From Sedimenticola selenatireducens DSM 17993 (GTDB lineage: Bacteria; Pseudomonadota; Gammaproteobacteria; Chromatiales; Chromatiaceae), in the NCBI RefSeq assembly GCF_000428045.1, contig NZ_KE386614.1:72066-136065 (forward strand): 64,000 bases of DNA, given 5' to 3'. Positions 14,209-64,000 of the stretch are shown in pieces. Position 1 is the stretch's first letter, and every line of letters starts with the position of its first letter. A program made the translations under genes and the position numbers. The notes below the pieces were generated by a model. That model ran no database searches. It was not told where the DNA came from and was given only the letters and a program-made list of their open reading frames with translations.

Positions 14209-14254
14209 GCCTTGTTCCTTTTGCGTTAACGCGGTTTCGTGCAATTGCCGCCCG

Positions 14255-17235: not shown

Positions 17236-17239
17236 GGGC

Positions 17240-35371: not shown

Positions 35372-36112
35372 TCACAACCGGGACACATACTCCTTGCCGG
35401 AAACGGAAAGATCACGTAATTCGGCCATATCCAGCAGGGCTATCCCGCGTCCTTTGACACCGATCACCCGTGCATCGGCAAGACGTTTCAACACCCGGCT
35501 AACGGTCTCCTGGGCCATGCCAAGATGGCAGGCAATATCGCTGCGGCTCATTCTCAGCTTAACCAATGGCGTCCTGTCCACTCCCCTTTCCGGGAGCCGT
35601 CGGTGCATCTCCAGGAGAAAATCAGCCACCCGGGCGTCACTGTGCATCCGGTGGCGGAATAACGACGCCTGGAGAAGCGTCTGTTCCAAATTACATGCGT
35701 GGATGATGGATCGGGTCAACTGCAGATTGTCCTGCCGACGATTCAGCAGCAGGCGGCGGGGCAGCCGGCACAACTGGCTGTCCATCGTGGCCATGGCACG
35801 CACGCGTTTCATGCCGTCATCGAGCAAGCCCTGGGTTCCGAACGGCTCGCCTGGAAATCGAAAGCTGGCCCACTCCAGATCGCCAACCCGCTGGCTGATC
35901 CTGATACAGCCGCTGCGAACCACATACACCGCGTCGGGTGAGAATTGCAGCCCTTGACGCACCGCGTGCAGCGCCTCGCCGTTGGAGGCGCGGTCACCGT
36001 AGGGACAGACCGCGTTCAGTGGGCAGGACTCCGCGTTTATCACGCCACTTCCGGCACCGACACTATCGGCGACCCTTGATTTGTACAGGGTTAGGCAGGG
36101 ACTGGACGACAT
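35372..36112 (-). CDS. FNR/CRP-family transcriptional regulator
   Basis: A 246-residue regulator (ATG 36110-36112, preceded by a perfect AAGGAGGTG). An N-terminal cysteine pair C-x5-C (CPLNAVC, residues 30-36) and a cysteine in SQLCRLP (about 115) correspond to three of the four [4Fe-4S] ligands of E. coli FNR (C23, C29, C122). The C20 equivalent is alanine; C6 or C69 might substitute. The cNMP-like barrel and dimer helix lead to a helix-turn-helix with MAQETVSRVLKRL, which keeps the FNR E--SR recognition residues. It is the last gene of the respiratory island and its likely regulator. Confidence 0.88.
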   Translation of the reverse strand: MSSSPCLTLYKSRVADSVGAGSGVINAESCPLNAVCPYGDRASNGEALHAVRQGLQFSPDAVYVVRSGCIRISQRVGDLEWASFRFPGEPFGTQGLLDDGMKRVRAMATMDSQLCRLPRRLLLNRRQDNLQLTRSIIHACNLEQTLLQASLFRHRMHSDARVADFLLEMHRRLPERGVDRTPLVKLRMSRSDIACHLGMAQETVSRVLKRLADARVIGVKGRGIALLDMAELRDLSVSGKEYVSRL

Positions 36113-36225
36113 CGATTTCACCTCCTTATCGGTTCAGTGGTTCTCGGCAGAATTTTTACTGTTCCGGTGTTCCATCACCACCCGGGACAGCTTGTGCCTG
36201 GGCTTTCAGATCGCGTGGCGGCTCA

Positions 36226-36816
36226 TCACTCATCGAACTCCGACACATCCTTGTGCGCAATACCCTGATGGCAATCAATGCAGGTCTCGCCGGTCTCCTT
36301 GATCTCCTCGTGTGCCTGCCACGCCATTTCCGTCTGTGCCGCCTCGGTCATGCCCTCGATGCCGTGGCAGTTGCGACACTCCCGCGAATTGCTGGCCCGC
36401 ATCGACGCCCATACGCGTTTCGCGAGCTCCACCCTTTTGGCCTCGAATTTTTCCGGGGTGTCAACCGTACCCATGACCTTGTGAAACAGTTCATTACTGG
36501 CCTGAATTTTTCTCATCAACTTATAACCCCAGGGGCGCGGCACATGACAATCGGCGCATGTTGCCCGAACACCAGTACGGTTCTGGTAATGCACCGTCTC
36601 CTTGTACTCCTGGTAGACAGTATCCCGCATTTCATGGCAGCTGATGCAGAACGAGAGCGAGTTGCTCGCTTCCATCGCAGTATTGAACCCGCCCCAAAAA
36701 ATGATGCCACCAAATAGACCGATCACGAGCAAGGTCAGTATTGAATACTTTGCACTAGGCCTTCTAAGTACACTCCACCAGCGGCGCAGCGTGCCAGGTT
36801 TGTTTGTTTTACTCAT
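36226..36816 (-). CDS. NapC/NirT-type membrane-anchored tetraheme cytochrome c
   Basis: These proteins oxidise menaquinol or ubiquinol and pass electrons to periplasmic partners. From ATG 36814-36816 the product has 196 residues: an N-terminal cytoplasmic stretch, one membrane anchor (ILTLLVIGLFGGIIFWGGFN) and four heme motifs CISCH, CADCH, CRNCH and CIDCH. The length fits NapC/NrfH-like proteins. It is the only quinol-oxidising candidate in the locus, so it probably feeds the upstream-encoded molybdoenzyme or cytochromes. The 304-base gap before it may contain a separate promoter. Confidence 0.9.
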   Translation of the reverse strand: MSKTNKPGTLRRWWSVLRRPSAKYSILTLLVIGLFGGIIFWGGFNTAMEASNSLSFCISCHEMRDTVYQEYKETVHYQNRTGVRATCADCHVPRPWGYKLMRKIQASNELFHKVMGTVDTPEKFEAKRVELAKRVWASMRASNSRECRNCHGIEGMTEAAQTEMAWQAHEEIKETGETCIDCHQGIAHKDVSEFDE

Positions 36817-37120
36817 ATCGACTACCCCTGAAATTCCGGACGATAAAATTAGCCCGCGATCGCCGTTTTGATCGCGCAATGGCGGGCAATGCACACCCTG
36901 CGGGCGGATTGGCCTGGATGGCGGGTGAATAAGCGACAGCGCGCGCCATCCTCGGGTCTGTCAGGTACATCCCTGTACCACGCGTCACCGCCGCATTATT
37001 GGTGGATGCGCCTGCCGGTTTGTCCACCCTGTCATCGCAGCCGTTCCACCAAGACCGTGAACCCGGCTATACCGATGTGCCCACTTCCAGACCAACCTGT
37101 GCCGGCAACCGGGAGCCAGT
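36817..37120. other. Intergenic region upstream of the NapC-type gene
   Basis: 304 bases on a same-strand gap within the island. It contains several hairpins: CGCGATCGCC...GATCGCG near 36855-36876 and GGTACATCCCTGTACC at 36963-36978. The second is the same constant-loop hairpin type seen before prfA. No gene is supported; a promoter for the NapC-FNR pair could lie here but no FNR box (TTGAT-N4-ATCAA) was found. Confidence 0.5.
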
Positions 37121-37828
37121 CTATTTCAACGTGTCCTTCGCCGTTTTTTGCAGCTCAACGCGGATTGGCGGTACCGGGTCCCCGGTGAAGATATCCTTGA
37201 GTTTGTAATGCTCGTGCATGGCATCGCCGTTTCTTACGAATTTGTCGAATTCGAAGTGGTACTTCGAATCGACATTTGGCGTGAACGGCGTGTAGGGCGG
37301 TTTCGCCGCTTTATAGGGAGAGCCTTCGTATGAAAGGTGGCACTTGGCGCATGCCTGCTCATATTCGAAATTTTGACCGGCCTCGACCAAAATGCCGCGA
37401 GCGGTCGGCTCGGACTTTTTCTTCATGAGCGACTGGGCACTGCCATGCTCGGCCCGGTATAACTTTCCGGCGCCATGACAGGATTCACAGTTGACAGAGC
37501 CCATGGATTTTTTTCCGCCTGGTTTCATACCGACCTTATAACCGGTTTTTTCTCCAAAACCCGTTGTATGACAGGTCAGGCACTCCTTGTCCTGGGTGTA
37601 ATCTTTCTCAGGGTCCAGCTTGGCTGCCTTTTTGGCGTCAGCCTTCGCGCCTGGCTTTAGCGATTCAAAGGACTTTGCATGCGCCGTCCCAGACCATGAT
37701 TCTCCCTGCGGTTTGTGACATTTGGTGCAATTCTTTACCCCGACGTAGACGGCATCCGCACTAATGGCACCCGGCGCCATACTCATCATGGCTACCGCGC
37801 TGATGAGCCATACAAAAATATGTTTCAT
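37121..37828 (-). CDS. Periplasmic tetraheme cytochrome c (c554-like)
   Basis: The 235-residue protein has a signal peptide cleaved near AISA-DA and four heme motifs: CTKCH, CLTCH, CESCH and CAKCH. The arrangement, with GVKNCTKCHKPQGESW near the mature N-terminus and a Lys-rich spacer, resembles cytochrome c554-type proteins. It is likely a soluble electron shuttle between the NapC-type protein and other members of the island. It ends with a Lys-rich tail; no membrane anchor is seen. Confidence 0.88.
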   Translation of the reverse strand: MKHIFVWLISAVAMMSMAPGAISADAVYVGVKNCTKCHKPQGESWSGTAHAKSFESLKPGAKADAKKAAKLDPEKDYTQDKECLTCHTTGFGEKTGYKVGMKPGGKKSMGSVNCESCHGAGKLYRAEHGSAQSLMKKKSEPTARGILVEAGQNFEYEQACAKCHLSYEGSPYKAAKPPYTPFTPNVDSKYHFEFDKFVRNGDAMHEHYKLKDIFTGDPVPPIRVELQKTAKDTLK

Positions 37829-37919
37829 GATGTTATTCTCCCCTCGAATGATCTTTAATCCTGATTAATACAAACCGATGCGCTGAATTTTCGTGGACAG
37901 CATTCGGCCTCTGGCCCTC

Positions 37920-38852
37920 TCAGCAGCCGCACTCCTGTTCAACGGAAATGCCAACCTGGGCACTGGCCTTTTGTCCATTTTCATCCTCCACCCGCAACGT
38001 GACGATATAAAGCCCTTGCGTGAACGTATGCTCGACGACCTTTTCCGTTGAAGATTCACCGTCGCCAAAATTCCAGGTGACGCTCTTTATCTTTCCACTG
38101 CCGCCACCGGTCAGCGCCTTGAAGGTTACCTTGTAGGGTGCGTCGCCTCGGCGATTTCTTACACCGCCGATTCGTGCCATAAGATTACCGCCAACGGGAG
38201 CCAATACTTCCTCGACAAAAAGACTTCCACCGAGGACATGTGACGCCTTGGTCAGGGATTCCTTGATCTTATCCTCCATCATTACGACATCCTGCTGGCT
38301 CATGTTGCTGCCTTTTGTAACTTCCGCTTGTTGTCCGTCATCCACTCTCAAGCGGGTTGAACCGACATCCGTTACCAGGCGACCTATAAGCGACCATGCC
38401 GTAAAACTGTCCTTTTCAGGATCGTACTTTATTGCAAACTCCGAACCTTGGGTTCGCACATCCATTGCACCCATGCGGACCTTGAATTCGGAAAACAGGT
38501 GCTCGGGTACCTGCGCCTTAACAAACAGGCGTCCGTTGATGATGTCCAGATAGGTCTTTTCAATCTTTTTTTCGAGATCGAAGATGACGCCGGTCAGGGC
38601 AACTTCCGAATTGGGATAGACTCTGACCATGCTTCCGTTCGACCAAGTGATGTTCGCGGCGGACCTGTTCCTGGTTGCGAGGCGGTCGCCACGAGTCAGG
38701 ACGTCACCGTCGGATACCTTTACCCACTTTTCCGTTCCGGGTTTGAGTACTTCCACATCGCCATCTGCCCGTGTGACGCGTACCACCGACGCGTCATCGG
38801 CCCATGTGAACACGGCCCAAAACATTAGCATGGAGGCAATTACGTATTTCAT
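37920..38852 (-). CDS. Exported FecR-domain protein with C-terminal PKD domain
   Basis: From ATG 38850-38852 (AGGAGA nine bases upstream) the product has 310 residues. A signal peptide ends near TWA-DD. Residues about 20-175 match the FecR/OstA-like fold (WVKVSDGDVLTRGDRLATRN, then MDVRTQGSEFAIKYD). A PKD-like immunoglobulin fold follows at about 215-305, with VTWNFGDGESSTEKVVEHTF. The C-terminus ends in CGC, possibly a metal or disulfide site. There is no N-terminal anti-sigma region, so a structural or ligand-binding periplasmic role is more likely than classic FecR signalling. Confidence 0.82.
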   Translation of the reverse strand: MKYVIASMLMFWAVFTWADDASVVRVTRADGDVEVLKPGTEKWVKVSDGDVLTRGDRLATRNRSAANITWSNGSMVRVYPNSEVALTGVIFDLEKKIEKTYLDIINGRLFVKAQVPEHLFSEFKVRMGAMDVRTQGSEFAIKYDPEKDSFTAWSLIGRLVTDVGSTRLRVDDGQQAEVTKGSNMSQQDVVMMEDKIKESLTKASHVLGGSLFVEEVLAPVGGNLMARIGGVRNRRGDAPYKVTFKALTGGGSGKIKSVTWNFGDGESSTEKVVEHTFTQGLYIVTLRVEDENGQKASAQVGISVEQECGC

Positions 38853-38892
38853 GGCCAAAATCTCCTGAATTTCATTAATCGTTCATTCATAA

Positions 38893-40659
38893 TCAGTAAA
38901 TCAACTCCAGCCCGACAACCACCTCATAAGCCGCACCCGGGATGGTTCCATCAGGACGTGCATAGACGGCGCCGGGTTGGAAGTAACCGATGTTGGCAAA
39001 CATTTCGAGCCACTTGCGGTGTTGGTATCTGGCAGCTATGTCCAGCTCCCATCCCACATCATTGGTCAGGTTTGTCGATGTGGATGTACCGTTGCTCCAA
39101 TCCCGAATCGGGCCGCGACCCTCAAACACGTCCTCGGTTGTCCATATCCTGGCAATGGAAGGTGTTATCGACAGGCCTTTTGCCGGCTTCAGGGTTGTAT
39201 CAAGACGCAGGTACGTGATATTGGCCAGGTTGCTGTCCCATAAAAAATATCCGGCCCGGATGTCCTCGCTGAAAATCTCTCCGAACTTATGGCGGTCACG
39301 ACACAGAGAGAGCCCGGTAAAGTATTTGTAATCGCCGGTTGCCGAATCATTCACGCCATTTCCAGAACCGCGACCGAGTTCGAAACCAAGCGACCATTCC
39401 CCCAGCGATTTCGACCGGGAGAAGCTGCGCTCGGCACGGAACAGCAGCGCATTCGCATCGATGTCCCTGTCCTCGGTATAACCACCAGTAAGCCATACCG
39501 CCTCACCTTCCATTCTCCAGCGATCGATATCGACTGATCCCGCGATTCCCGACCATAACGGATTGAACCCGCCATCCCTTGGGGTTGTTGCCGCATTGAA
39601 GTCCTTGTCAAGATTCAAATCCGCATCACCTGCTTCTCCCCCGTCAACCGCCTTCATTAGAAAGGGCCTGATCCATGAGTTCCGCGATGGACGGAGATCG
39701 AAATCGAGGTAATAGGCATCCAGTCGGGTGTCGCTGAAAAGGACGTTCTCGCGAGTTCCGGCGGGAGGCCCCGTAGTGGAAAAGTCCGTGTAATCGGTCC
39801 AGCCGCCGGCAAGACTCAAATAGCCCGCTGTGATACTTGCTGCAGAAAATACCGGTACCTGAAGACGAAACGAGTTGATGGGACCTTGCACCACGACGCC
39901 ATACCCTTCATCCCAATTCTGGCGACCAATACGTGCCATAAAGTGTTCGTTGGTGTATTGACCGTAGAGCTCGCGTACCAACGTGGTATTAACGGATTCG
40001 AAATCACCCCACCGTTCGAGCGTTCCTTCGCTGTCCTCCTTCCAATCAAAGGTAAAATTGCCCTTGTCAAGAAGGAGACGTACCAGAAAATCCTCGTAGG
40101 AAGCATCGACTTGCAACTGGAACCGCTGATCAAAGAAGTTTCGATTATCGAAATCCCAGCTTTGCTGCGCGTTGCCCAAGTCAAAATTATTGCGCGAATT
40201 GAATTGGACTTTATACTTTCCTGAAAACTCGAAGCCGACCTTTCCCTTCCGCTCCTCCTCCTCCCTGACCGCCACCGATTTCATCTTGCGGATGTCCGTT
40301 TCGATCTCAGTGAGACGCCGGCGCGCCTCGTCATCCCGCCCGGTTTGTGCCCCCGCGATATCCGGCTCGCCCCATTCGTCATTACCTTCCGTTGCCGCGG
40401 AATCTGCTTGTGTGACATCCGTGTCATTACCGGAATCCCGGGTCTTGTCGGCAAGGGCCGACTTCAGTTGGCTGATATCCTGCCGCGAACTGGCAAGTTG
40501 CGCTTCCATGGTTTGAAGGCGTTTCAATAACTCGGCTACATCTTTGCTGTTCAGTCCGGCGGATTCCGCCGCAACCGCGATGGGAGTCGATACCGCGACT
40601 CCCGTCAGCAGGCAACTGGTCGCCAGCGGAATACAATACCTTTGCAGTTTATTCTTCAT
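38893..40659 (-). CDS. Outer-membrane beta-barrel protein with N-terminal coiled coil
   Basis: A 588-residue protein with a signal peptide (cleavage near AVA-AE), a coiled coil at about 35-75 (LLKRLQTMEAQLASSRQDIS), an acidic linker, a second helix, and then aromatic-rich alternating strands to the C-terminus, which ends VVGLELIY. This is the build of a porin-like outer-membrane protein. It lies between two multiheme cytochrome genes, so it may be a substrate channel or, like MtrB/DmsF in other systems, a sheath for a trans-outer-membrane cytochrome; no CxxCH or MtrB CxxC motif was seen in it. Confidence 0.8.
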   Translation of the reverse strand: MKNKLQRYCIPLATSCLLTGVAVSTPIAVAAESAGLNSKDVAELLKRLQTMEAQLASSRQDISQLKSALADKTRDSGNDTDVTQADSAATEGNDEWGEPDIAGAQTGRDDEARRRLTEIETDIRKMKSVAVREEEERKGKVGFEFSGKYKVQFNSRNNFDLGNAQQSWDFDNRNFFDQRFQLQVDASYEDFLVRLLLDKGNFTFDWKEDSEGTLERWGDFESVNTTLVRELYGQYTNEHFMARIGRQNWDEGYGVVVQGPINSFRLQVPVFSAASITAGYLSLAGGWTDYTDFSTTGPPAGTRENVLFSDTRLDAYYLDFDLRPSRNSWIRPFLMKAVDGGEAGDADLNLDKDFNAATTPRDGGFNPLWSGIAGSVDIDRWRMEGEAVWLTGGYTEDRDIDANALLFRAERSFSRSKSLGEWSLGFELGRGSGNGVNDSATGDYKYFTGLSLCRDRHKFGEIFSEDIRAGYFLWDSNLANITYLRLDTTLKPAKGLSITPSIARIWTTEDVFEGRGPIRDWSNGTSTSTNLTNDVGWELDIAARYQHRKWLEMFANIGYFQPGAVYARPDGTIPGAAYEVVVGLELIY

Positions 40660-40719
40660 GGCTGTAGTGTCTCCGTCGCCAGCCTGTCTCGAATCAGTCG
40701 AATTGGTTGCCGCTGAAAC

Positions 40720-41367
40720 TCATTTCAAGGAAGCTTCCTGCGGCCTGCCATAGAACGTCTTGATCTTGCTGTCCGGTCCGTGGCATTCAACACACACCAG
40801 CTTTTTGAGCGATGCCTTGTAGGTATATGGGTCGGCCGGTCTCAACGTATTCACGTAGTTAAGATTGTCGGGCGCCTGCGGTTTCACCAGTCGACGGCTC
40901 CATGAATTCTTCGGTGCGCGTAACACATTGGGATGGTATATATCGCCTTCGATAAACCATCCTTCCTTGGGCGGCACCTCATCTCCATCGGGTATGGTTA
41001 CCATTTCATGACAAGTCAGACAGGAACGGTTTTTGCCCTTGTAGGCAATCTTGTTGGATTCCAGATGGAGCAGATGTGGGTTCTTTATATAGGGTTTCGC
41101 GGTCTCCTCTTCCATGATGAACTGATGGCAATCAAGGCATTCCATATTCTGCTCGCTGTAGTCTGGCACCTCGCCATCCGTCGGGCCCTTTACCGCCTTT
41201 GGGGGCCAGTCGATCGCAACCTGTGTGGGTAGTGCTGCAGCCACCGGAGCGGTTACACCCGATTCGGGGGCACGGGTTCCCCCCGCAGTGACCGATTCCC
41301 CTATGGCCCCCCCGCATCCCGTCAGGCTTAGAAGCAGGCTCAGTCCGATAGTATTCAGCATTCGCAT
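40720..41367 (-). CDS. Triheme cytochrome c lipoprotein
   Basis: The 215-residue protein begins with a signal ending in lipobox SLTGC, so it is lipid-anchored. Three heme motifs are present: CLDCH, CLTCH and CVECH. The start ATG 41365-41367 has a GGGGAGAG site and overlaps the chaperone gene by 13 bases. Its position suggests it links the periplasmic oxidoreductase to the outer-membrane protein encoded next. Confidence 0.87.
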   Translation of the reverse strand: MRMLNTIGLSLLLSLTGCGGAIGESVTAGGTRAPESGVTAPVAAALPTQVAIDWPPKAVKGPTDGEVPDYSEQNMECLDCHQFIMEEETAKPYIKNPHLLHLESNKIAYKGKNRSCLTCHEMVTIPDGDEVPPKEGWFIEGDIYHPNVLRAPKNSWSRRLVKPQAPDNLNYVNTLRPADPYTYKASLKKLVCVECHGPDSKIKTFYGRPQEASLK

Positions 41368-42044
41368 GACACTCTCCCCTCGGTTTCCAATTGTTCAACC
41401 AACCCCGGAACGAACTCACCCTCTGTCTGTAGCAAGTCGAGGGTGAGATAGGCCAGGGCCCGATACAGGCCGGATCTTGATTCTTTAATGACACGCGCAC
41501 AAAACGGTTGGTACCAGCGCAGCAAGTGACTGACCAGTAAGTCATGCTGGTGTTTGAGATTTTGCCGGAGACCGTCGATATTTTGTGCCCGCCACAGCTG
41601 CTCCTCTATAAAGCAGAGAAAATTAAGGCACTCCAGCTCGACTCCTATATGGTCGGGCAGTTCCAGACAATCCTTTGTCAGTTGGATCCCGGCATTGCGA
41701 TAAGCCGTCTGCACCATGACCGATATCTTTCCACCCACCCGCTGTTTTTCGTCCAGATAAAATGATTCGACCGGATGCACCCCGCTTGGCAGCACGAATA
41801 GCCTGGTGTATTCCGCGGTCAATTCATTTTCCTTATTGTCGATGGCTGATATCTCTTCATAAAACGATTTCATCTCATCGGTTACCAGCTTGGCCGCCTC
41901 GTTTCCCGGCCCCATCTGGAGCGGTTCGGCTTGGAGCGATTCCACAAGTTCCGCGGTTGGTGGAGCGCTGTATAGCGTGGCCAGCACCGCATACCTTCTG
42001 CCGCGTTCCGCCGCCACGTTCGCCATGGTTGTATAGTCAAACAT
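41355..42044 (-). CDS. TorD/DmsD-family molybdoenzyme chaperone
   Basis: A 229-residue all-helical cytoplasmic chaperone starting at ATG 42042-42044 (GGAGAGG upstream). Features are RRYAVLATLYSAPP near the N-terminus, EYTRLFVLPSGVHPVESFYLDE (the conserved E-Y-x-R-L-F...P..S.Y region) and DHIGVELECLNFL. TorD-type proteins bind the Tat leader and help insert the cofactor, here presumably of the molybdoenzyme encoded at 43870-46803. It overlaps the polyferredoxin gene by 8 bases. Confidence 0.9.
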   Translation of the reverse strand: MFDYTTMANVAAERGRRYAVLATLYSAPPTAELVESLQAEPLQMGPGNEAAKLVTDEMKSFYEEISAIDNKENELTAEYTRLFVLPSGVHPVESFYLDEKQRVGGKISVMVQTAYRNAGIQLTKDCLELPDHIGVELECLNFLCFIEEQLWRAQNIDGLRQNLKHQHDLLVSHLLRWYQPFCARVIKESRSGLYRALAYLTLDLLQTEGEFVPGLVEQLETEGRVSCEC

Positions 42045-43215
42045 TTTCAGTTCCTCTCCTGGCAAAGCGCCGGGCCATTTTTTCCCGACGCTTTTCGGTG
42101 GTGATGCACAATGGACAGAAGCTCTCATCCGTACTCCCCAGAAAAGGTTGACGGCAGAACTCGCAAGTGTTTTTTTCCCCCGTCACCAGCTTCTGCTGAG
42201 TGCCTAGAAACAACAATGAGAGATCCACGTTATCGCTGACACGGACCGCCCGGTGGAAGCAGGCCTCCTCGCAAACACGGCAACCGGTACATAGCGACGG
42301 TGTGTAGCTCAACTCATAGTGCCTTTCTGAATCGCTGTGATGAATGGCACCCACCGGACATAACGTCTCGCAAACATTACACCCGGTACATTTTGGTCCG
42401 ATCTCTATACTTGCTACCGGTAAGCCCTGGGCGGCATAGCCCGCTTTTAAGGGCCTGGCCCCGGGAAGGGCCTGTAGCACATTGAGAAGATGAGACCGTT
42501 TCGGATTTTCCGCATGGTTCCGTACGAGATCACGAAACGGCGTGATCGCAACATCAAGCGGATCCTCCGCATCGATGCCGGGAGAAGCATCTGCCTCTTC
42601 CCATTTGTCGGCGAAAGCCCGAAAGAAGTCGCGTCGCGAGACACCCGTTTTTTGGGCGGGCAGGGTTTGCCGAGGAGTGCCCAGAGGGGTGGTCAAATGC
42701 ACAATCCGCCCTGCATCCAGGTTGACGGATTCCAGCAGTCCCCTGGCCAACTTTATTACCTTCTTCCATTGCCCCGCGGTTTTATGTAGTCCGCAGCCTG
42801 AACAGTCCGGCGAACGCAGTTCAACGCTTTGTGCGCCCCACCTCAAAGGCTCCAGAACTACCCCCTCGGTCAGTCTACAGAGGCAGGAAAGAACCAGATC
42901 CGCCTTGCCATTGGCCCGGTCGCAGGCAATTCGAAACGGCTCTGATGGATGTTCCCGATTCCGTGTTCGAGAACCAAGGTCCAGATTGTTGATATCCTGC
43001 CCTAATGCACCATTCGGACAGGCTGAAACACAGGCACCACACGCAATGCATGCTTCCGATATCTCGGCACCCTCTCCGGAGAGGTGGATCGCATCCGGAA
43101 CAGGGCACACTTGCATGCATTCAACACAAGATGACTGTGAGCATCGATAGCGGGAGCAGAGCCCATTCTCGATGAGAATGGGCTGCTCCCTACCAGTACT
43201 TACGCTTTGGTCCAT
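42037..43215 (-). CDS. Cytoplasmic polyferredoxin with zinc-ribbon-like C-terminus
   Basis: The 392-residue protein (ATG 43213-43215, GGAG upstream; GTG 43227 also possible) has no signal peptide. N-terminal cluster motifs are CSQSSCVECMQVCP and CIACGACVSACPNG. A middle section contains LVLSCLCRL and DCSGCGLH. Two further clusters, CTGCNVCETLCPVG and CTGCRVCEEACFHR, lie at about 290-340, and the tail has CEFCRQPF...CPLC, a probable zinc ribbon. Up to four [4Fe-4S] clusters are possible. Being cytoplasmic, it is more likely to serve maturation or redox supply than to be a subunit of the exported enzyme. I do not recognise a named family. Confidence 0.8.
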   Translation of the reverse strand: MDQSVSTGREQPILIENGLCSRYRCSQSSCVECMQVCPVPDAIHLSGEGAEISEACIACGACVSACPNGALGQDINNLDLGSRTRNREHPSEPFRIACDRANGKADLVLSCLCRLTEGVVLEPLRWGAQSVELRSPDCSGCGLHKTAGQWKKVIKLARGLLESVNLDAGRIVHLTTPLGTPRQTLPAQKTGVSRRDFFRAFADKWEEADASPGIDAEDPLDVAITPFRDLVRNHAENPKRSHLLNVLQALPGARPLKAGYAAQGLPVASIEIGPKCTGCNVCETLCPVGAIHHSDSERHYELSYTPSLCTGCRVCEEACFHRAVRVSDNVDLSLLFLGTQQKLVTGEKNTCEFCRQPFLGSTDESFCPLCITTEKRREKMARRFARRGTENV

Positions 43216-43235
43216 TAGGTTATTCACTCCGTCTA

Positions 43236-43856
43236 TCAGCGCGTGTACTTGGTGGACGGTCCTGTGTCCGAGCCGGCAACGGTAATACTTACCGCTCGCG
43301 ACCGCTTCTCCCTGATCAGCGACGTCAACTCATTAAGCTCGCCAAAGAAACGTGTCTTCCCGACACAGGTTTCAACACAGGCGGGAACTTTTCCCTGTTC
43401 GAGACGCTGTACACAAAGCGTGCATTTCTCCATGACCCGTGCTTCCGCGTTGAACTGCGGCGCGCCATAGGGGCAGGCCCAGGCACAGTAGCGACAGCCG
43501 ATGCACTTGTCCTTGTTGATAAGAACAATGCCGTCCTCCTTGCGCTTGGTTATCGCCCCCACCGGACATGCGGCCTGGCATGCCGGTCGACCGCAATGCA
43601 TGCACGGCATGGGTACGAAGGTAAGCGCCATGTTTGGAGCCTTGGTTGTATCCCTGAATTCACCCTCCTCGATTTCGATCACACGGGTATAATCGACCCC
43701 CAACGGCGTGTTGTTTTCCGCCTTGCACGCCATGGTGCAGGCGTTACATCCGATACAGAACTCCAAATCGATCCAGAGTGTGTATTGTTTCGGTCCGGGT
43801 TTCGCAAGCGACCGCTCAAAGATCTCCGGAGAAATTACTGGGTTCTTTTCTGTCAT
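43236..43856 (-). CDS. DmsB/PsrB-type four-cluster iron-sulfur subunit
   Basis: The electron-transfer subunit of the molybdoenzyme. The 206-residue protein has four cysteine groups: CIGCNACTMAC, CMHCGRPACQAACP, CIGCRYCAWACP, and CTLC...CVETC, consistent with four [4Fe-4S] clusters. No signal peptide is present; such subunits are exported with the Tat-tagged catalytic partner. It follows that gene by 13 bases with a GAGGAGGG site. Confidence 0.93.
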   Translation of the reverse strand: MTEKNPVISPEIFERSLAKPGPKQYTLWIDLEFCIGCNACTMACKAENNTPLGVDYTRVIEIEEGEFRDTTKAPNMALTFVPMPCMHCGRPACQAACPVGAITKRKEDGIVLINKDKCIGCRYCAWACPYGAPQFNAEARVMEKCTLCVQRLEQGKVPACVETCVGKTRFFGELNELTSLIREKRSRAVSITVAGSDTGPSTKYTR

Positions 43857-43869
43857 GGCTTGGCCCTCC

Positions 43870-46803
43870 TCAAACTGAAAGTTTTTCGATCTTGAGCGGC
43901 GTACCGTAGCTCTGTGTACCGCCGGCTACAGGATCCTGTAATCCGCGGTCACCCAAGACCGGGTCTGCCATATAGAGCGGGTTGATACTGAACCCGGCGC
44001 CGATGCGCTTATCGGAAAACTGCTCCTGGCCGTCGGCGTCCCATCCCTTTGCACCGGCACCCCATCTGCCATAGGAGTTGCTTACCGAAAAGACTCCTGG
44101 ACGGATCCGGCTGGTGACATTTACCTGGAACTTGAACCAACCGTCACCCATCGAGTTTTCAACACTGGGAATGTGCTTGCTCGAAGGCGATTTAACCCTG
44201 ACCCAATCACCGGAAACCACGCCCATCTTCTCCGCATCCACCGGATTCATTTCCGCATAGTTTTGCGGTTTGATCGTTGCCAGCCACAGGTTGTTCATGG
44301 TCCGTGACTGGGTATGCCAGGCATCCTTGTGGGTGTGCAGCTGGATCGGATACTCATCCCAGATGGCCTGGTCGATCTCCCGCTCCTTGCAATCGATCAT
44401 GAAGCGATACTGCGGCAGGCCATCAAAGTACTTGCCCGTCATGCTGTTCTTGTTGGTGGCCACGGCCTGTGAGTAGGCGCGCAGACCCCGCACCTGTCGA
44501 CCACCGGGGAAGCGCACATAGTCACCCTCGTATTGATTTCCCGGGTTCTCGAACTTGCCGCCTAGTTTCACAAAGCTGCTTTGCGGGTCCTCCAGACCGG
44601 TTTGACCCTCGAAGTCCTTGTGCTTGTAGTACTCGTTCCAGAATTGCCAGGAGTTCATGAGGTCGATTCCTGGGCCGCCGCCATCCTTGCCAAAACCCGG
44701 CAAGCCGCAACGGATGGCCAACTGGATCAGCGTGTCGTCGCCGGTCTGTACATCCGGATGCACGCCACGATAATCCTTGGTCGCGGGATCGACTGTCCCC
44801 ACCACGGGTTGGCGCAGGCCCCACAAGCGGGTCTTGATGGGCGGATAGGTCTTGAACCCGCCGATCCTTTCCAGGTATTCGGAGTCGGGGAGTATGTAAT
44901 CGCACAGCGAACTGGTCTCGCCCATGTAGGCGTCGATACTGAAGGTCAGCGGCATCGCCTTGAGGTCCAGCAGTGCCTCGATTACCGATGAATTCATCGG
45001 CACGGTGTAGGCCGGGTTGTTGTAGTAGTTAAGGTAGGCCTTGATCCGGTAGGGATAGCCTTGGCGCACCGAGGAGAAAAACTCGCCGGCGACCGAACGA
45101 TAGGCCAGCGGATACCAGGGACGGGTGGACAATGGCTTAATGCCCTGGTATTTCGCCTTGTGACGGTCGATGGTTACGCCCTGGGCCTTGCGTTTTTCGC
45201 CCTTTACCGCGCCCTTGTAAGCGGCATGGCCGGGATTGAAGCCACCCTTGCGGTCGATATTGTCGACCATCATGTTAATGATGATCAGGGCTTGCCCGTT
45301 CCACCAGCCATTTGACTGCTGGATGGGTCCGCGGAACATCTCTATGACCGGCCGCTTGGCGTCGGTGAAATCCTTGGCCACGCGCGCGATGGTGCCGGCC
45401 GGGAGATCACACCGCTGCTCGCACTCGGCCAGGGTCTTTTCAGTCACCCGTTCGCGGAGCATGCGAAAGACGGTCTTGTACTTTTTACCCTTCAGCGTTA
45501 TTTCCGCATCGAGCTCGGCCGGGCCGTCCACTTCGTGGAATAGCGTCGGCTTGCCCTTGACCAGTACAACATGATCCGACTGACCCAGACCGGCATCCTT
45601 ACCGGTCAGATAGACCTTTGGCTCATCCGTGGCAACCAGGTAAGTCATATCGGTCCAGTTGCGCCGGCCTGTTTTCTTGGCCGCCTGTTCATTGGGCAGG
45701 GCGAGGTAGTCCACCTTGTAGGCCTTGTTCTCGATCATCCACTGGATCATGCCCATCAGGAAGAAGGCATCCGATGACGGTTTGAGTGGAACCCACTCAC
45801 CCTTGTTGGAGTGCGTAGCCTTCGCCGCCGCGGGCGAGAACCAGGGGTCCACGACCACGTGCTTGAAGCTGCGCGAATCGGGGCCGGTTCTTTTGGCCAT
45901 TTTCTGCAGATAGCGCGCCCGTGTCTGGCCCGGATAATCCGCGTGCGTGACGTTCGATCCGACACTGATCAGATGTGTGCAGTACTCGTAGTCGGCATAG
46001 GCGCCAATCTCGAAGCGCGGGATATTGAGGGTATCCTCGATGACGTTGTAGAAGGTACCGGCACAACGGTCGCAATGGTTGAGCATGTGCGGCACACCGG
46101 CGGCTTCCTTGACAAAGCGGGGCGTGAGCGGGGACTGCTCGTTACGCCCATGCGCCCATACGAACTGATTGCGCTTGGGCCCCCAGCCCTCTGGAGGTGC
46201 CTCGTCCATGAAGTCGGAATCCGCCGCGCCAATCGGACTGTCATTGTTGAGGATTGACTTGAGCCCCTCGACGACACGGCCCTCTTCACCCGGAACGTCC
46301 TTGAAAAGTTTGCCGCCTTCGGTGATTTCTGTCAGCGCCTGATCCCAGCTGACCACTTTCCATTTACCCGAACCGCGAGGACCCACCCGCTTCAGGGGGT
46401 GCGTCAGGCGAGCGGGGCTGTAGAGTGCGAATATGCCGGATTGACCCTTGGGACAGAGGGTGCCCACATCCTTGCCATTGAGTCCGGCATCGAGATCACT
46501 CTCCTCGACCAGGTCCCCCTTGGCGACATAGTCGTAGGTGTTGGGGTGATAGGGATTGCCACTGATCTTTACCAGTTCCCCGTTCTGTACCGTGCATTGG
46601 ATTCCACATCCGCTGTGACACATCAGGCAGACGCTGCGCACGATCTCCGCCTGCTCCATGTGGCGGTCTGGCTGGGATCCGGATTTTCCCAGTTGTTCCA
46701 GCCACTCTCCCGCATTTACCGGGTTTACTCGAGTTAGTACCGCCGCGGTACCACTGACCTGTAGAAATGTTCGACGGCTGAGATAATGCTTCAACAGCTT
46801 CAT
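43870..46803 (-). CDS. Tat-exported molybdopterin oxidoreductase, DMSO reductase family
   Basis: A 977-residue catalytic subunit. The Tat motif is SRRTFL at residues 9-14. The N-terminal cluster is C59-x2-C62-x3-C66-x50-C117, a long final spacer. The probable Mo-ligand region is NHCDRCAGTF (C244 or C247), suggesting a cysteine ligand. DAYMGETSSLCDYILPDSEYLE and the C-terminal VNVTSRIRPGVFSVSNSYG fit the tetrathionate/arsenate/selenate (TtrA/ArrA/SrdA-like) side of the family. The substrate is not determinable here. It leads a ten-gene unit and has a GGGAGG site 8 bases before ATG. No NrfD-type anchor gene follows. Confidence 0.9.
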   Translation of the reverse strand: MKLLKHYLSRRTFLQVSGTAAVLTRVNPVNAGEWLEQLGKSGSQPDRHMEQAEIVRSVCLMCHSGCGIQCTVQNGELVKISGNPYHPNTYDYVAKGDLVEESDLDAGLNGKDVGTLCPKGQSGIFALYSPARLTHPLKRVGPRGSGKWKVVSWDQALTEITEGGKLFKDVPGEEGRVVEGLKSILNNDSPIGAADSDFMDEAPPEGWGPKRNQFVWAHGRNEQSPLTPRFVKEAAGVPHMLNHCDRCAGTFYNVIEDTLNIPRFEIGAYADYEYCTHLISVGSNVTHADYPGQTRARYLQKMAKRTGPDSRSFKHVVVDPWFSPAAAKATHSNKGEWVPLKPSSDAFFLMGMIQWMIENKAYKVDYLALPNEQAAKKTGRRNWTDMTYLVATDEPKVYLTGKDAGLGQSDHVVLVKGKPTLFHEVDGPAELDAEITLKGKKYKTVFRMLRERVTEKTLAECEQRCDLPAGTIARVAKDFTDAKRPVIEMFRGPIQQSNGWWNGQALIIINMMVDNIDRKGGFNPGHAAYKGAVKGEKRKAQGVTIDRHKAKYQGIKPLSTRPWYPLAYRSVAGEFFSSVRQGYPYRIKAYLNYYNNPAYTVPMNSSVIEALLDLKAMPLTFSIDAYMGETSSLCDYILPDSEYLERIGGFKTYPPIKTRLWGLRQPVVGTVDPATKDYRGVHPDVQTGDDTLIQLAIRCGLPGFGKDGGGPGIDLMNSWQFWNEYYKHKDFEGQTGLEDPQSSFVKLGGKFENPGNQYEGDYVRFPGGRQVRGLRAYSQAVATNKNSMTGKYFDGLPQYRFMIDCKEREIDQAIWDEYPIQLHTHKDAWHTQSRTMNNLWLATIKPQNYAEMNPVDAEKMGVVSGDWVRVKSPSSKHIPSVENSMGDGWFKFQVNVTSRIRPGVFSVSNSYGRWGAGAKGWDADGQEQFSDKRIGAGFSINPLYMADPVLGDRGLQDPVAGGTQSYGTPLKIEKLSV

Positions 46804-47741
46804 TAGATTGTCCTCCCGAGAGTTACCTATGCTTCAAACCGACATTCGCATGTCATTGGGTGTACTTGTTCATGACTTTAATGACCCAATTACTGGTCGT
46901 TCACTGTTTAGCTAAATACCTTTCCTGCTTGGATAAACGACACCCCCTTTCATGTCGTATCTGGACAACCAACCGAATTTCGAGCGTATGCGAGTCAGTC
47001 GGGGATGTTCAAAGTAGGTTGCTTTTCTGGCCACCGCCCCTTTTGGGTGGGCTGGGTTAATCGATTTGGCGACCGTTTGATATGACATGACTGAGTCGCA
47101 ACACTCCCCGCTGGGTCAGTATGCATATTCCCTGCCATGAATTATTCGGAATATGGTTGTATGTTGTTTCTATTGAAAATTACTTGTTAAATTTAGGGTT
47201 AATCTAATTTCTGTATTCGGTTTATGGATTAATTCGGTTCTGAATTATGGGAATGTGTCTCCAAGCGGTAGCATAATCGGAGAAACAGCCTTGTTTCGTA
47301 ACCGTTTGGTAACCAAATACGGATTTGACTGGATTTACCAGACAATCCGGTTACCCATTGGTAACGGTTGAAACGAAATTTATGCGCTCCGGCGCTCCAC
47401 CCAGGCTCGCGTTCCGATGACGGCGCCCTCGGGATGCCTCATGTACCGGGACATCCGGTTGATCTGGAGATTGGGGTGGGGTAGGAAACGCATTGCCCGC
47501 GAATGATGGGCATGCAGACCTCGCCTGTCGGGAGGCGGGCCAGGTCGGTGAGAGTTAAGTAACGTAGGTCGGATCGGCGCGGCCTGATTCGATCCCTGGG
47601 CTCCGATGCATCGACCCGTGCTGTCGGGTTTTGCCGTCGACTGATGCGACCGGCAACGCCCGCAACGGGATAAACCGTGCTATTTGCGTTTATTTGCGGC
47701 TTTATAAATGGTATTCGGCCGTAGCTGAGCCTGAGGGGTAA
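46804..47741. other. AT-rich leader region of the respiratory island
   Basis: 938 bases without a supported gene. GC is far below the neighbourhood: 47161-47280 has 39 G/C in 120 bases by my count. Palindromes occur at about 47301-47321 (CCGTTTGGTAACCAAATACGG) and 47350-47365 (GTTACC-CATT-GGTAAC), and the flanking TTTCGTAACC/GGTTGAAACGAAA are themselves roughly inverted. The minus-strand promoter of the molybdoenzyme operon should be here. I saw no FNR consensus; TTTGATATGACATGA near 47076 is only a half-site. From about 47400 onward the sequence returns to normal GC and I see nothing. Confidence 0.55.
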
Positions 47742-48446
47742 TCAGCTTTCGTAATGACGATCTCCAGGTTGGATCGCTTCCTCGTTGGCCCGCTCCACCG
47801 GCAGGCCCTCCATGCGCCATTCCGGCAGCCCCCCCTCCAGCCGCCGGGCATTCATCCCCTGCTGGCGCAGTCGGGACACCGCCTCGAACGCCAGCACGCA
47901 ATGGGGGCCGCGACAGTAGGCGACGATCTCCTGGGAGGGGGCGAGTTCATCCAGGTGTTTTTCCAGATCCTTCAACGGAATATTGATTGCCCCCGGCAGG
48001 TGTCCGGCGGCGTACTCTTCCGGTGGACGCACATCCAGCACCGTTACCAGGCCCGCGCGGGCACGCTCCAGCAGTTGACTGGCGGGGATCGGTTCCAGGC
48101 TGTCCTTGACCTTGAGGTAGTCATCGACCAGGCGGTTGACATCGGCCAGATGACGCTCGGCGACACCCCTCAGGGAGCCGAGCAGGGCGGATACGTCCTG
48201 ACCGCTCAGCCGGTAGTAGACCTTTTGCCCCTCCTTGCGGCTGGACACCAGCCCCGCCTGCCGGAGCTGCTGCAGGTGCTGGGAGGTGTTGGCCACGCTG
48301 AGCCCGGAAACCCGGGCCAGCTGATCGACGCTGCGTTCCCCCTGATCCAGGAACTCCAGCAGTTCCAGTCGGTAACCGTTCCCCATCGCCTTGGCGATAC
48401 GCGCAAACTGGCTGAACAGGTCGTGTTTGAAATTGGCGGTTGACAT
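47742..48446 (-). CDS. ArsR-family regulator fused to a rhodanese domain
   Basis: The 234-residue protein (ATG 48444-48446) has an N-terminal winged helix of the ArsR/SmtB type, residues about 5-95 (RSVDQLARVSGLSVANTSQHLQQLRQAGLVSSRKEG), lacking cysteines. Residues about 115-220 are a rhodanese domain with VLDVRPPEEYAAGHLPGAI and the active-site loop AYCRGPHC. The rhodanese cysteines could sense persulfide or another sulfane species. It is divergent from a seven-gene cluster that also contains rhodanese and DsrE domains, with an inverted repeat in between. Confidence 0.92.
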   Translation of the reverse strand: MSTANFKHDLFSQFARIAKAMGNGYRLELLEFLDQGERSVDQLARVSGLSVANTSQHLQQLRQAGLVSSRKEGQKVYYRLSGQDVSALLGSLRGVAERHLADVNRLVDDYLKVKDSLEPIPASQLLERARAGLVTVLDVRPPEEYAAGHLPGAINIPLKDLEKHLDELAPSQEIVAYCRGPHCVLAFEAVSRLRQQGMNARRLEGGLPEWRMEGLPVERANEEAIQPGDRHYES

Positions 48447-48460
48447 GGCTCGGTCCTTGG

Positions 48461-48490
48461 TATTCAATTATTCAAGAAATCTATTGAATA
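48461..48490. promoter_or_regulatory. Inverted-repeat operator candidate between the ArsR gene and the plus-strand cluster
   Basis: TATTCAAT (48461-48468) and ATTGAATA (48483-48490) are a perfect 8-bp inverted repeat with a 14-base spacer. The right half contains the TTGAAT used as -35 of the plus-strand promoter. The left half lies 15 bases upstream of the regulator start. ArsR-type repressors commonly bind such A/T-rich inverted repeats, so autoregulation and control of the divergent cluster are inferred. Confidence 0.6.
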
Positions 48491-50462: not shown

Positions 50463-50669
50463 GTAACTACTCACGGGGTGATTGGCCTGCCTTGACGACC
50501 TCACGTGATGGCTCGTTTCCTCGAATCCGGCCCCATTTTCAGCGCCTGCCCAAACTCGCTTCGCTCAAACAAGGGCAGGCTTGAATCTGAAAAAGGGGCC
50601 GGATTCGAGGCGCCATCAAGATCGGCCAACAAGGCAGGCCAATCACTTACAGACCGGGTAAGTAGTTAC
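50463..50669. repeat. Long imperfect inverted repeat (MITE-like hairpin)
   Basis: About 207 bases. Ends are GTAACTACTCACGGGGTGAT (50463-50482) and, inverted, ...AAGTAGTTAC (50669), with a small interruption in the right arm. Nested arms include GGCCTGCCTTG/CAAGGCAGGCC, CCTCGAATCCGGCCCC/GGGGCCGGATTCGAGG and GCCTGCCC/GGGCAGGC around a 21-base loop. A related end sequence occurs at 61513-61565. It has no coding capacity. Confidence 0.75.
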
Positions 50670-50705
50670 GTTTTCCTTACCTGCAACAACATGGGAGATT
50701 CGCAG

Positions 50706-51050
50706 ATGAAGGTTCTGATCATACTCAACGACCCACCCTACGGCACGGAGCGCAGCTTCAACGGTCTGCGCCTGGCCAAGGCCCTGTCCAGCAAGGACGC
50801 CGAGGTCTCGGTATTTCTGATGGCCGACGCCGTGGCCTGCGCCAAGGCGGGCCAGAAGGTCCCCCAGGGCTACTACAACCTGGAGCTGATGGTGAAATCG
50901 GTGTCCCGCCAGGGTGAGGTGCTGTTGTGCGGCACCTGCATGGATGCCCGCGGCCTGAGCGACGAAGAGATCATCGAAGGGGCCCGCCGCGGCACCATGG
51001 CGGAGCTGGCGGAGCGCACCCTGGCCGCCGACAGGACGCTGGTGTTTTGA
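50706..51050 (+). CDS. DsrE-family sulfur-relay protein
   Basis: The 114-residue protein starts at ATG 50706 with GGGAG upstream. It begins MKVLIILNDPPYGTERSFNG, the standard DsrE/YchN opening, and contains a cysteine pair in LLCGTCMDARG at the position of the sulfur-accepting cysteine. Such proteins relay persulfide sulfur or are periplasm-independent redox proteins. Its presence beside rhodanese fusions suggests shared sulfane-sulfur handling. A long hairpin element separates it from the preceding gene. Confidence 0.88.
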   Translation: MKVLIILNDPPYGTERSFNGLRLAKALSSKDAEVSVFLMADAVACAKAGQKVPQGYYNLELMVKSVSRQGEVLLCGTCMDARGLSDEEIIEGARRGTMAELAERTLAADRTLVF

Positions 51051-51101
51051 AGAGCGAAGTGTGACATCTGATCATCAACAATAATCACCGGGAGTACGAC
51101 G

Positions 51102-53414: not shown

Positions 53415-53427
53415 AGGAGAAATTGCG

Positions 53428-54222
53428 ATGAAATTAACACGCTTATTCCTGGTGCTGATCCTGGCCCTCTTCGCGGCGGCCAGCGTACAGGCGCAACCCG
53501 GCGCTGACGACATCGTCGCCCGCTCCCTGGAGACCTTCTACTATGCCGGGGACGACCAGCGTACCCGGGTCAGCATGCGGCTGATCAATCCCCAGGGCAA
53601 GGAGCGCAAGCGGGTCATGACCCTGCTGCGCAAGGACCTGGGCGGTGAGGGCGAGCAGCGCTACTTTATCTATTTCCACGAACCGTCCGACGTAAAGGGC
53701 ACCACCTTCATGGTCTGGAAATATCCGGCCCGGGAGGATGATCGCTGGATTTTCATTCCGGCGATCAAGCTGGTCAGACGCATCGCCGCCGATGACAAGC
53801 GCTCCTCTTTCGTCGGCTCGGATTTCACCTATGAGGACGTCTCGGGCCGCGAGGTGGGAGACGAGAGCCACAGCTTGCTGGATGAGACGGACCTGGATGG
53901 CCGACCGGTCTACCGGATCGAGAGCGTTCCCAAGGCCAAGGCGGACTACGTGCGTCGCCTCTCCTGGGTCGACCGGGAGCGCTGGCTGCCGCTCAAGGAG
54001 GAGTACTACGACGGCCGCGGCGAACTGCTGCGCACCTTTACCGCCGACCAGGTGCGAGAGGTGGACGGTCACTGGACGGTCACCCACCGTACCATGCGCG
54101 ACGCCCAGAGCGGTCACCACACCGAGGTGGTGTACGACGAGGTGAACTACGGCGTCGGGCTCGACGACGACCTGTTCAGCGAGCGCTATCTGCAGCGCCC
54201 GCCACGGCAGTGGATACGATGA
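53428..54222 (+). CDS. Outer-membrane lipoprotein-sorting (LolA-like) periplasmic protein
   Basis: A 264-residue exported protein with a signal peptide ending QAQPG and a LolA/LppX-like fold. Characteristic pieces are MTLLRKDLGGEGEQRYFIYF, DVKGTTFMVWKYP and DDRWIFIPAIKLVRRI. Proteins of this group bind hydrophobic molecules in the periplasm. It lies 13 bases after the RND gene, so it probably carries that exporter's substrate. It overlaps the next gene by 4 bases. Confidence 0.85.
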   Translation: MKLTRLFLVLILALFAAASVQAQPGADDIVARSLETFYYAGDDQRTRVSMRLINPQGKERKRVMTLLRKDLGGEGEQRYFIYFHEPSDVKGTTFMVWKYPAREDDRWIFIPAIKLVRRIAADDKRSSFVGSDFTYEDVSGREVGDESHSLLDETDLDGRPVYRIESVPKAKADYVRRLSWVDRERWLPLKEEYYDGRGELLRTFTADQVREVDGHWTVTHRTMRDAQSGHHTEVVYDEVNYGVGLDDDLFSERYLQRPPRQWIR

Positions 54223-61658: not shown

Positions 61659-62375
61659 TCAGAACTGCAACTGCCACCACTCGAGTGTGACGGCCTTGAA
61701 GCCGTCGCGTTCCTGCCCGGCGCCATCCCAGGCCGCGAAGGCGACCGGCACCGATTTACGGCCATTGAGCACGACACCTTCGTCACTCTTCACCACCAGC
61801 GGCCGAGCCAATACCACGTCCCAGCCGTCGCCGTTGCGCGCATGGCTGCTGGTCAGTTCCTTGGAGGCTACCGGTGTCGCCGTACCGAATCCCTGTGCAA
61901 ACAGGTTCTCGGTGCGGCCATCGGCGAACCAGTGCCAGATGTTGACCGGGTTGTTGCCATCCCCCATGAAGGGGGTGGTGGTGACCTCGCCGCTGAGCGG
62001 GAACTGCACCGCCACCTGATCGAGGAAACGGTCGGTATCCGCCATGTCGGTATTGGCGGTCTTGTCGGTCCAGCGCAGGCGCACGTAGAGCATGTCACCC
62101 GCCTGGACCGCCTGGGCGGTGAGCCGATGGGTCGCCGGTGTGCCGACGATCGAGGGATGCCCCGGAAACGCCGGTTGCAGGTCGACCTGGGTTACCGGCG
62201 CCTGCTTCCACACCGCCGCCCCCGGAGACTTGGCATCCACCCCGGCCTTTACCGACAGGGCGCTCAGGGTGCGCGCGCCGGTTTCGGCCGGCGCCGCCCA
62301 GGCTGTGGTGCCCAGTGCCGCGGCGGAGCAGAGCATGAGCAGGGAGAGTTTTTTTGCATAACGGACAAGTTTCAT
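61659..62375 (-). CDS. Heme-binding gamma subunit of a type II DMSO-reductase-family enzyme (SerC/ClrC/DdhC-like)
   Basis: The product from ATG 62373-62375 has 238 residues and a signal peptide cleaved near TAWA-AP. The mature part, with [15 protein letters not shown] and AVQFPLSG...[18 protein letters not shown], fits the ethylbenzene-dehydrogenase gamma-like family that binds a b-type heme and receives or donates electrons to the beta subunit. A longer frame adds an out-of-context leader. It begins one base after the chaperone stop, completing the A-B-D-C order. Confidence 0.87.
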
Positions 62376-62376
62376 G

Positions 62377-63940: not shown

Positions 63941-64000
63941 TCAGGCTTTCTCGACGTCAACCGTCGTTTCATGGAAGATGCGGTTCGGGTTGAAGCCGCC
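63941..64000 (-). CDS. C-terminus of the catalytic A subunit (SerA/ClrA/DdhA-like), cut by window edge
   Basis: Nineteen codons before the TGA at 63941-63943 read GGFNPNRIFHETTVDVEKA. Their position right before the beta subunit on the same strand indicates the molybdenum-containing A subunit of an A-B-D-C operon. Identity rests on context because almost all of the gene is outside the window. Confidence 0.7.
   Translation of the reverse strand, partial: GGFNPNRIFHETTVDVEKA

Follow-up and report, generated by a model that had tools for sequence, protein, structure and literature searches.

Among the enzyme groups sampled, the nearest counterpart of the system reported here is TtrBCA, in which a molybdenum (Mo) subunit with an FS0 cluster and a Cys ligand is paired with a four-cluster B subunit. 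Among electron modules, the NapC-type proteins of Nap and Pcr and the HAO-c554-cM552 set are well known. To our knowledge there is no agreement on which enzyme reduces selenite to elemental selenium when Gram-negative bacteria respire selenate. In PMC10100899, the SrdBCA selenate reductase of Bacillus and an archaeal arsenate reductase are placed within the TtrA family, and Wells et al. 2023 describe an unnamed lineage as sister to that family. Here we describe a ten-gene cluster, centered on a Mo enzyme from a clade beside TtrA, within a 64,000-nucleotide stretch (hereafter the window) of the genome of Sedimenticola selenatireducens AK4OH1T (4,588,530 bases, 37 contigs). The strain, an isolate from estuarine sediment, grows with nitrate, nitrite, and selenate (PMC5052931); in the same paper, selenate respiration is reported to be absent from strain CUZ. 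The open-access literature searched, mostly as titles and abstract openings, yielded no description of the operon. Our tentative reading is that it encodes a quinol-linked Mo reductase of an uncharacterized clade, exported by the twin-arginine translocation (Tat) pathway and set in an oxyanion-respiration island, with a selenium oxyanion as the likeliest substrate.

The Mo subunit and its conserved operon

Ten open reading frames (ORFs) are present on the minus strand of the window between positions 35372 and 46803, and profile searches confirm the domains that an initial annotation, made from the sequence alone, had named for a respiratory gene run on one strand. The first encodes the catalytic subunit (43870..46803), a Mo-bis(pyranopterin guanine dinucleotide) protein of 977 residues with a Tat signal, assigned by its domains, alignment, and tree. 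Domain matches define a four-cluster Fe-S subunit of DmsB/TtrB type (43236..43856), a polyferredoxin of 396 residues and 26 Cys (42037..43227) with a role perhaps in electron transfer or maturation, a TorD/NarJ-family chaperone (41355..42128; a later in-frame ATG near 42044 is the likelier start), a periplasmic protein with FecR and PKD domains (37920..38858), a tetraheme cytochrome of the c554 family (37121..37828), a NapC/NirT-type tetraheme quinol dehydrogenase (36226..36894), and a Crp/Fnr-family regulator (35372..36121). Between the chaperone and FecR-PKD genes lie a triheme c-type cytochrome, recognized by its heme motifs (40720..41367), and a predicted AlgE-like outer-membrane barrel of 18 strands with an N-terminal coiled coil (38893..40659). 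Heme motifs number three in the triheme protein and four each in c554 and NapC. Intergenic gaps are below 100 nt from the Mo gene through the c554 gene, and the NapC gene begins at least 226 nt beyond. A scan of the operon for promoters and terminators performed no better than shuffles and was uninformative. A dip in GC content was considered as a mark of foreign origin and rejected because the operon genes (52-60%; other 2-kb windows 58-67%) compare with 56.6% for the whole genome.

The Mo subunit carries the domains PF00384, PF01568, and PF04879; its best NCBIfam model is TtrA, at 374 bits against a cut-off of 1750, and it scores 71 of 1600 bits with the ArrA model. In a 40-row tree, and in a second tree from which two long-branch rows (DmsA and Paraburkholderia) were removed and to which two rows were added, its family forms a clade of 17 rows with support 100/100 and a stem of 1.15-1.27. 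Its sister group comprises 14 rows, among them TtrA, an enzyme from a Citrobacter plasmid, and enzymes from haloarchaea (support 96/93 and 85/88). These 31 rows group together (100/99 and 100/100) to the exclusion of PhsA, ArrA, and the Sulfuricella arx gene that PMC6549141 names. The root serves drawing only, and long branches meet. The Mo subunit thus lies outside the TtrA clade, the sampled ArrA/ArxA, and PhsA in a tree that leaves out SrdA, SrrA, SoeA, AnrA, and archaeal Arr and in which PhsA alone represents PhsA/PsrA/SrrA. The Tat-exported, Ttr-related molybdoenzyme proposed in the initial annotation therefore stands, as a clade of its own that nests in none of the characterized clades sampled. 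The TtrA family of SrdBCA and the archaeal arsenate reductase is the sister of this clade, a separation drawn without their sequences in the tree.

Cysteines C59, C62, C66, and C117 would bind FS0, the Molybdop_Fe4S4 domain is present, and the predicted Mo ligand C247 aligns with a Cys in the 17 displayed nonfamily rows. By these residues the protein is predicted to be a Cys-ligated MopB enzyme. All 17 family rows have C244, three residues ahead of C247, and none of the 17 nonfamily rows displayed (of 23) has it. A structure model of the subunit had a predicted local distance difference test (pLDDT) score of 32.7 and was not used. The system shares with TtrBCA a Mo subunit with FS0 and a Cys ligand and a four-cluster B subunit; it differs in its separate clade (∼27-35% identity to TtrA-group members), the extra Cys244, further conserved genes, a different type of sensor, and the lack of NrfD at the operon in the window genome.

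A scan of named genomes provided 20 loci (L013 through L032) whose Mo subunits are closely related to that of the window (68-97% identity), from records titled Gammaproteobacteria, Betaproteobacteria, Nitrospirae, and Deltaproteobacteria; a 21st (L033), a distant match at 30% identity, was excluded from operon counts. The seven genes from the Mo subunit through FecR-PKD keep their order in all 20 as far as the contigs reach. Fe-S subunit, polyferredoxin, and TorD genes occur in every locus, the triheme gene in 19, the barrel gene in 18, and FecR-PKD in 17, and each absence of a core gene coincides with a contig end. A shared order of seven genes across 20 relatives is more than chance would produce. 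The remaining genes are less widespread: c554 is present in 11/20 loci, NapC in nine (plus a 78-residue fragment in L015), and the FNR-like gene in one, S. hydrogenitrophicus, so that the regulator was seen only in the two Sedimenticola. The contigs of L018, L025, and L029 stop before the c554/NapC position. Of 55 relatives searched, the window genome and one congener alone have a high-identity Mo enzyme; of 299 phylum genomes, which include the window genome, no other one does, and four have a distant match.

Several relatives show variations of their own. A small protein of 119 residues lies between the barrel and FecR-PKD genes at L022:15844-16203 and L031:6185-6544, with a PKD domain scored in L022; the window operon has no room for such a gene. 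In L017 (21237-22091) and L019 (20434-22851), another Tat Mo enzyme (805 residues in L019) follows the operon behind a MoaA-looking gene. In L022, a Desulfobacula metagenome-assembled genome, an in-frame TGA (10743-10745) stands where the four-cluster subunit otherwise has a conserved Cys ligand to an Fe-S cluster; it may be selenocysteine or an assembly error (the contig name gives a coverage of 3.2, and the downstream fold has an unexceptional z of −1.47).

Linkage to a SerA/ClrA-type operon

The neighborhood survey revealed features absent from the initial annotation that offer a first clue to the substrate: linkage to a SerA/ClrA-type operon, a sensor type, and operator-like boxes. At the right edge of the window, on the same contig (C8) and the minus strand, are the genes of a type II, Asp-ligated reductase in the order A-B-D-C: the gamma subunit with its heme b EB_dh domain (61659..62588 as the listed ORF; the true start is probably near 62380), chaperone D (62377..62952; PF02613), the beta Fe-S subunit (62949..63929; sequence comparison), and the 3′ end of the alpha Mo subunit (63941..64000). 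The remainder of alpha and divergent sensor, kinase, and regulator genes lie beyond the window (L074; sensor at L074:5119-6120). The nearest of these genes is 15 kb from the Mo gene, and the A gene 17 kb. The A subunits of two relatives, 82-83% identical to that of the window genome, score 1330 and 1340 bits with the type II model (cut-off 984.75). This operon encodes another class of Mo enzyme with its own partner subunits and has the sensor type found with the Mo operon in relatives.

PMC5052931 lists five genes of the dimethyl sulfoxide (DMSO) reductase family for the strain: 03903 (NapA), 01428 (NarG), 02603 (ClrA-like), 03351 (SerA-like, in serABDC order), and 04296 (PcrA-like). Gene numbers predicted by ordering the contigs by size, each read forward, come close to the published ones for the type II genes on C8 (3342/03351) and on two further contigs, C4 (2611/02603) and C26 (4295/04296), as well as for a 1257-residue NarG candidate (1404/01428) and an 857-residue NapA candidate (3907/03903). 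As 5/5 published tags fall within 24 of the prediction, the linked A gene is very probably A3GODRAFT_03351, the published selenate-reductase candidate.

An ortholog of the linked A gene at ≥80% identity is present in the genomes of 10/20 relatives and in 0/298 other phylum genomes (Fisher P = 7e-14; rows not independent); at a threshold of 1e-100, any match is found in 13/20. Among the 55 relatives, only the two with the Mo operon have the ortholog. Both operons share a contig within 20 kb in nine of the ten genomes, the tenth (L018) having a Mo contig of 7.8 kb.

The genes between the two operons are of uncertain membership in the system. They include an ArsR plus rhodanese protein (47742..48467, minus strand) and DsrE, MMPL, LolA-like, and DUF1302 genes (50505..55499, plus strand), with Cys/Met pyridoxal phosphate genes also among the right-hand neighbors. 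In five relatives from different classes (L013, L022, L023, L024, and L028), genes similar to all or part of the DsrE-to-DUF1302 set were recognized close to the operon, mostly by eye; in L022 the MMPL, LolA-like, and DUF1302 genes lie upstream of the operon in the same direction. An Rfam plant microRNA family match at 50479-50645, far under the gathering score, was taken as chance.

The main rival to a selenium role draws on this sulfur-related company. The enzyme would be a TtrA-sister reductase of a sulfur intermediate (tetrathionate, polysulfide, or thiosulfate), and the linkage would reflect merely a shared anaerobic oxyanion lifestyle. TtrA is both the best model and the sister clade, the hosts include Sulfuritalea, Sulfurisoma, and Hydrogenophilales, and rhodanese, DsrE, and Cys/Met genes are at hand. 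Against this, the congeners G001, G003, and G006 have separate TtrA-group enzymes (that of G003 scores 1231 of 1750 bits), and the ttr locus of an Escherichia coli plasmid, with TtrR and a sensor kinase, has neither an AioX-type sensor nor SerA/ClrA linkage. We consider a sulfur substrate unlikely.

Sensor and operator-like boxes

A PhnD-like periplasmic binding protein, a kinase, and an NtrC-type regulator (families assigned by scoring representatives from L016 and L023) are encoded divergently from the Mo operon in 9/20 loci. A sensor of this type stands beside SerA/ClrA-type genes on C8, on C4, in G350, and in G365, divergently on C8 and C4, and a relative of it is found in 16/21 genomes (the window genome and those of the 20 relatives). 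The set resembles AioXSR/ArxXSR: a binding protein with an equivalent of the AioX Cys106 (36% identity to annotated AioX), a histidine kinase, a sigma-54-type response regulator, and boxes that fit the AioR recognition sequence GTTN10AAC (PMC5335332).

The ligand pocket and the partner enzymes differ from those of AioXSR/ArxXSR. In an alignment of 19 of 34 matches and three plasmid rows, Ser210 and His212 occur in 12/12 sensors linked to the Mo operon or to type II genes, where the Cys106 equivalent is kept and Asp210 lost throughout. Every one of the 10 other sensors, among which are AioX, the published ArxX, and one linked to ArxA, has Asp210, and nine of them have Tyr or Phe at position 212. 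Such a loss of the carboxylate would suit an anionic ligand better than neutral arsenite. On C4, a second ClrA/SerA-type gene set (L075; G000:C4:20000-34000) has its own Ser210 sensor and paired boxes. A further Mo enzyme with its own AioX-like sensor, of the Asp210 type, occurs in L143 (G000:C36:93000-110000, on another contig of the window genome) and L137; it is 56% identical to an Azoarcus KH32C plasmid enzyme near ars genes and falls in a tree clade beside ArrA/ArxA.

The window has an AioR-type box, GTTACCCATTGGTAAC, at 47350..47365, 547 nt upstream of the Mo start. Across the 20 loci, 21 boxes fit a stricter form, GTTNC-N6-GNAAC (mean 4.2 in five simple shuffles); 18 of these fall in the 600 nt that precede the Mo gene and are spread over 10 loci. 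The window contains three strict boxes, the one at 47350 among them, where 0.73 are expected, a number reached in 4/100 shuffles, and paired boxes separate the sensor from the type II genes on C8, on C4, and in S. hydrogenitrophicus. Upstream sites resembling sigma-54 promoters match 8-9 of 11 positions in the window, L013, L016, L017, L018, L020, L023, L024, L028, and L032, and at most seven in L014, L015, L019, L021, L022, and L025; L015 nonetheless has sensor genes. These sites are supportive but not decisive because control coding sequences reach eight in 9/64 cases, the background is 0.226 sites per 400 nt on one strand, and the window site is out of register with the betaproteobacterial loci. 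Activation of the operon would probably depend on a periplasmic AioX-like sensor with its kinase and sigma-54 regulator, a set of the kind that also serves a SerA/ClrA-type reductase.

This regulatory likeness could instead signal an enzyme that acts on arsenic or antimony oxyanions and is controlled by a regulator of the AioXSR/ArxXSR type, given the identity to AioX, the conserved arsenite-binding Cys, and the AioR-like boxes. The replacement of Asp210 by Ser in every linked sensor argues otherwise, as does the position of the Mo clade outside ArrA/ArxA. Strain AK4OH1 does not respire arsenate (PMC5052931), and general domain matches gave an ArsR-type domain only, with no search aimed at arsenic genes. 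We regard this alternative as improbable.

Electron path, envelope proteins, and a possible role in selenium respiration

The initial annotation had stressed the lack of an NrfD anchor. Indeed none is encoded on C8, and the three NrfD matches in the genome are all on other contigs; the lack is lineage-specific, however, as relatives carry NrfD-type genes. Desulfobacula L022 carries genes for a multiheme protein, an Fe-S protein, and NrfD (PF03916, E = 3e-36) immediately upstream of the Mo gene, the start of L025 resembles, by eye, the tail of an NrfD-type protein, and in L014 the stretch after the core (13682-17359) encodes c554, a hexaheme cytochrome, an Fe-S protein, and an NrfD-like protein, a mixed quinone module. 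No quinone module was identified at L015, L019, L021, or L030. On the strength of L022, L025, and L014, NapC/c554 and NrfD appear to be alternatives within one enzyme family. NapC would oxidize quinol, and the electrons would reach the four-cluster subunit, and from it the Mo site, by way of c554 and perhaps the triheme protein, with an NrfD module taking the place of NapC in some relatives. The annotated path from quinol through a NapC-like protein and cytochromes to the Fe-S/Mo enzyme is thus plausible, with NapC/c554 replacing NrfD in the window genome. TorD, and possibly the polyferredoxin, would mature the Mo enzyme. The window set has a NapC-family protein and a tetraheme c554 in common with the Nap/Pcr and HAO-c554-cM552 modules and pairs them with a Ttr-like Mo enzyme.

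In ammonia oxidizers, c554 and cM552 pass electrons toward the quinone pool, and NapC-type proteins can run in both directions. The chain might therefore run in reverse, the Mo enzyme oxidizing a donor and c554 and the NapC-family protein delivering electrons to the quinone pool. The c554 protein does match the Nitrosomonas CycA model nearly over its full length (289 bits, cut-off 400). An adjoining FNR-type regulator, the linkage to a reductase-type operon, and NrfD in the place of NapC in a relative all point toward reduction, and we think the reverse direction quite unlikely.

The barrel has no Pfam or NCBIfam match. Its model (pLDDT 65.6) has 18 strands, and its best fold match is the alginate exporter AlgE (E = 2e-16; template modeling score by target ∼0.6), from which it differs in its extra N-terminal coiled coil and in its lack of a match to any sequence family. 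An anion or polymer channel is our guess from the model. Within the favored reading, the barrel and the PKD proteins would let an anionic substrate or its product through the outer membrane or handle it there. The triheme protein, annotated as a lipoprotein, is a triheme cytochrome, but a lipobox is present in only 2/16 aligned rows, both Sedimenticola. The shared operon of multiheme proteins and barrel had suggested an outer-membrane electron conduit for extracellular reduction in the manner of Shewanella DmsEF-AB or MtrCAB. We now hold this to be very improbable: the barrel is AlgE-like, no MtrB-type sheath is among the 50 listed of 881 fold matches, the ten operon genes include no deca-heme gene by heme-motif count, and the lipobox is so restricted.

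A role in an as yet unassigned step of selenium respiration is possible because the Mo operon tends to occur together with genes for a presumed selenate reductase and with a sensor of one type. The selenate respiration of the window genome's host counts toward it, and the place of the Mo clade beside the TtrA group counts toward the favored reading as a whole. The likeliest substrate would be the selenite formed by SerA or else selenate. Several observations weigh the other way. The linked-gene ortholog was not found in the genomes of 10/20 relatives, whose completeness is not stated; c554 is missing although the contig continues in L015, L019, L021, L022, L026, and L030 (in L026 for under 500 bases past the core, where an Fe-S gene begins). 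No sensor relative was found in 5/21 genomes. The upstream box is absent from L014, L019, L021, and L022 and degenerate in L024, and in the window genome the sensor is not beside the Mo operon, which has a single exact box upstream. The AioX-type sensor family is known for arsenic (PMC5908839), and the ClrA-named copy on C4 also comes with a Ser210 sensor. Although S. hydrogenitrophicus carries both operons, one passage on this species mentions no acceptors other than nitrate, N2O, and O2. Finally, the reading rests on sequence throughout: genes, order, clade, linkage, sensor subfamily, and boxes are read from it directly, and from them we infer electron path, direction, regulation, localization, and substrate.

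The linked enzyme shows 82% identity to the ClrA proteins from Ideonella and Alicycliphilus, in a comparison that did not include Thauera SerA, and may thus be either a SerA or a ClrA, a further point against the selenium assignment. That the system serves chlorate or perchlorate, which the strain uses with peptone (PMC5052931), with the linked enzyme as a ClrA, is nevertheless hardly probable at all, given that chlorite dismutase (cld) was found in only 3/21 genomes, where the contig that bears it also carries a PcrA-like type II gene (35-36% to the query), and that 27 kb around the Ideonella clr genes lack such a sensor. Chlorite dismutase was not found in 8/11 genomes with a SerA/ClrA-type gene, so chlorate respiration is unlikely in those eight.

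A more specific proposal follows the selenium reading further and is, in our view, possible but doubtful. The new MopB clade would be a dedicated respiratory reductase of selenite (or an alternative one of selenate) encoded with a SerA-type enzyme under a shared selenium-oxyanion sensor, with interchangeable NapC/c554 and NrfD modules and with barrel and PKD proteins managing substrate or Se(0) at the outer membrane, together a complete two-step Se(VI)-to-Se(0) island. What is new is the clade and its gene set; the kind of enzyme is already known. The finding names a concrete candidate gene set for the selenite step in a cultivable type strain, with a colocalized SerA/ClrA-type partner, a sensor type, and operator-like boxes, and it places NapC/c554 and NrfD in each other's position within one enzyme family. 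It also supplies gene content for a MopB lineage sister to TtrA, which may be the one that Wells et al. 2023 noted without a function.

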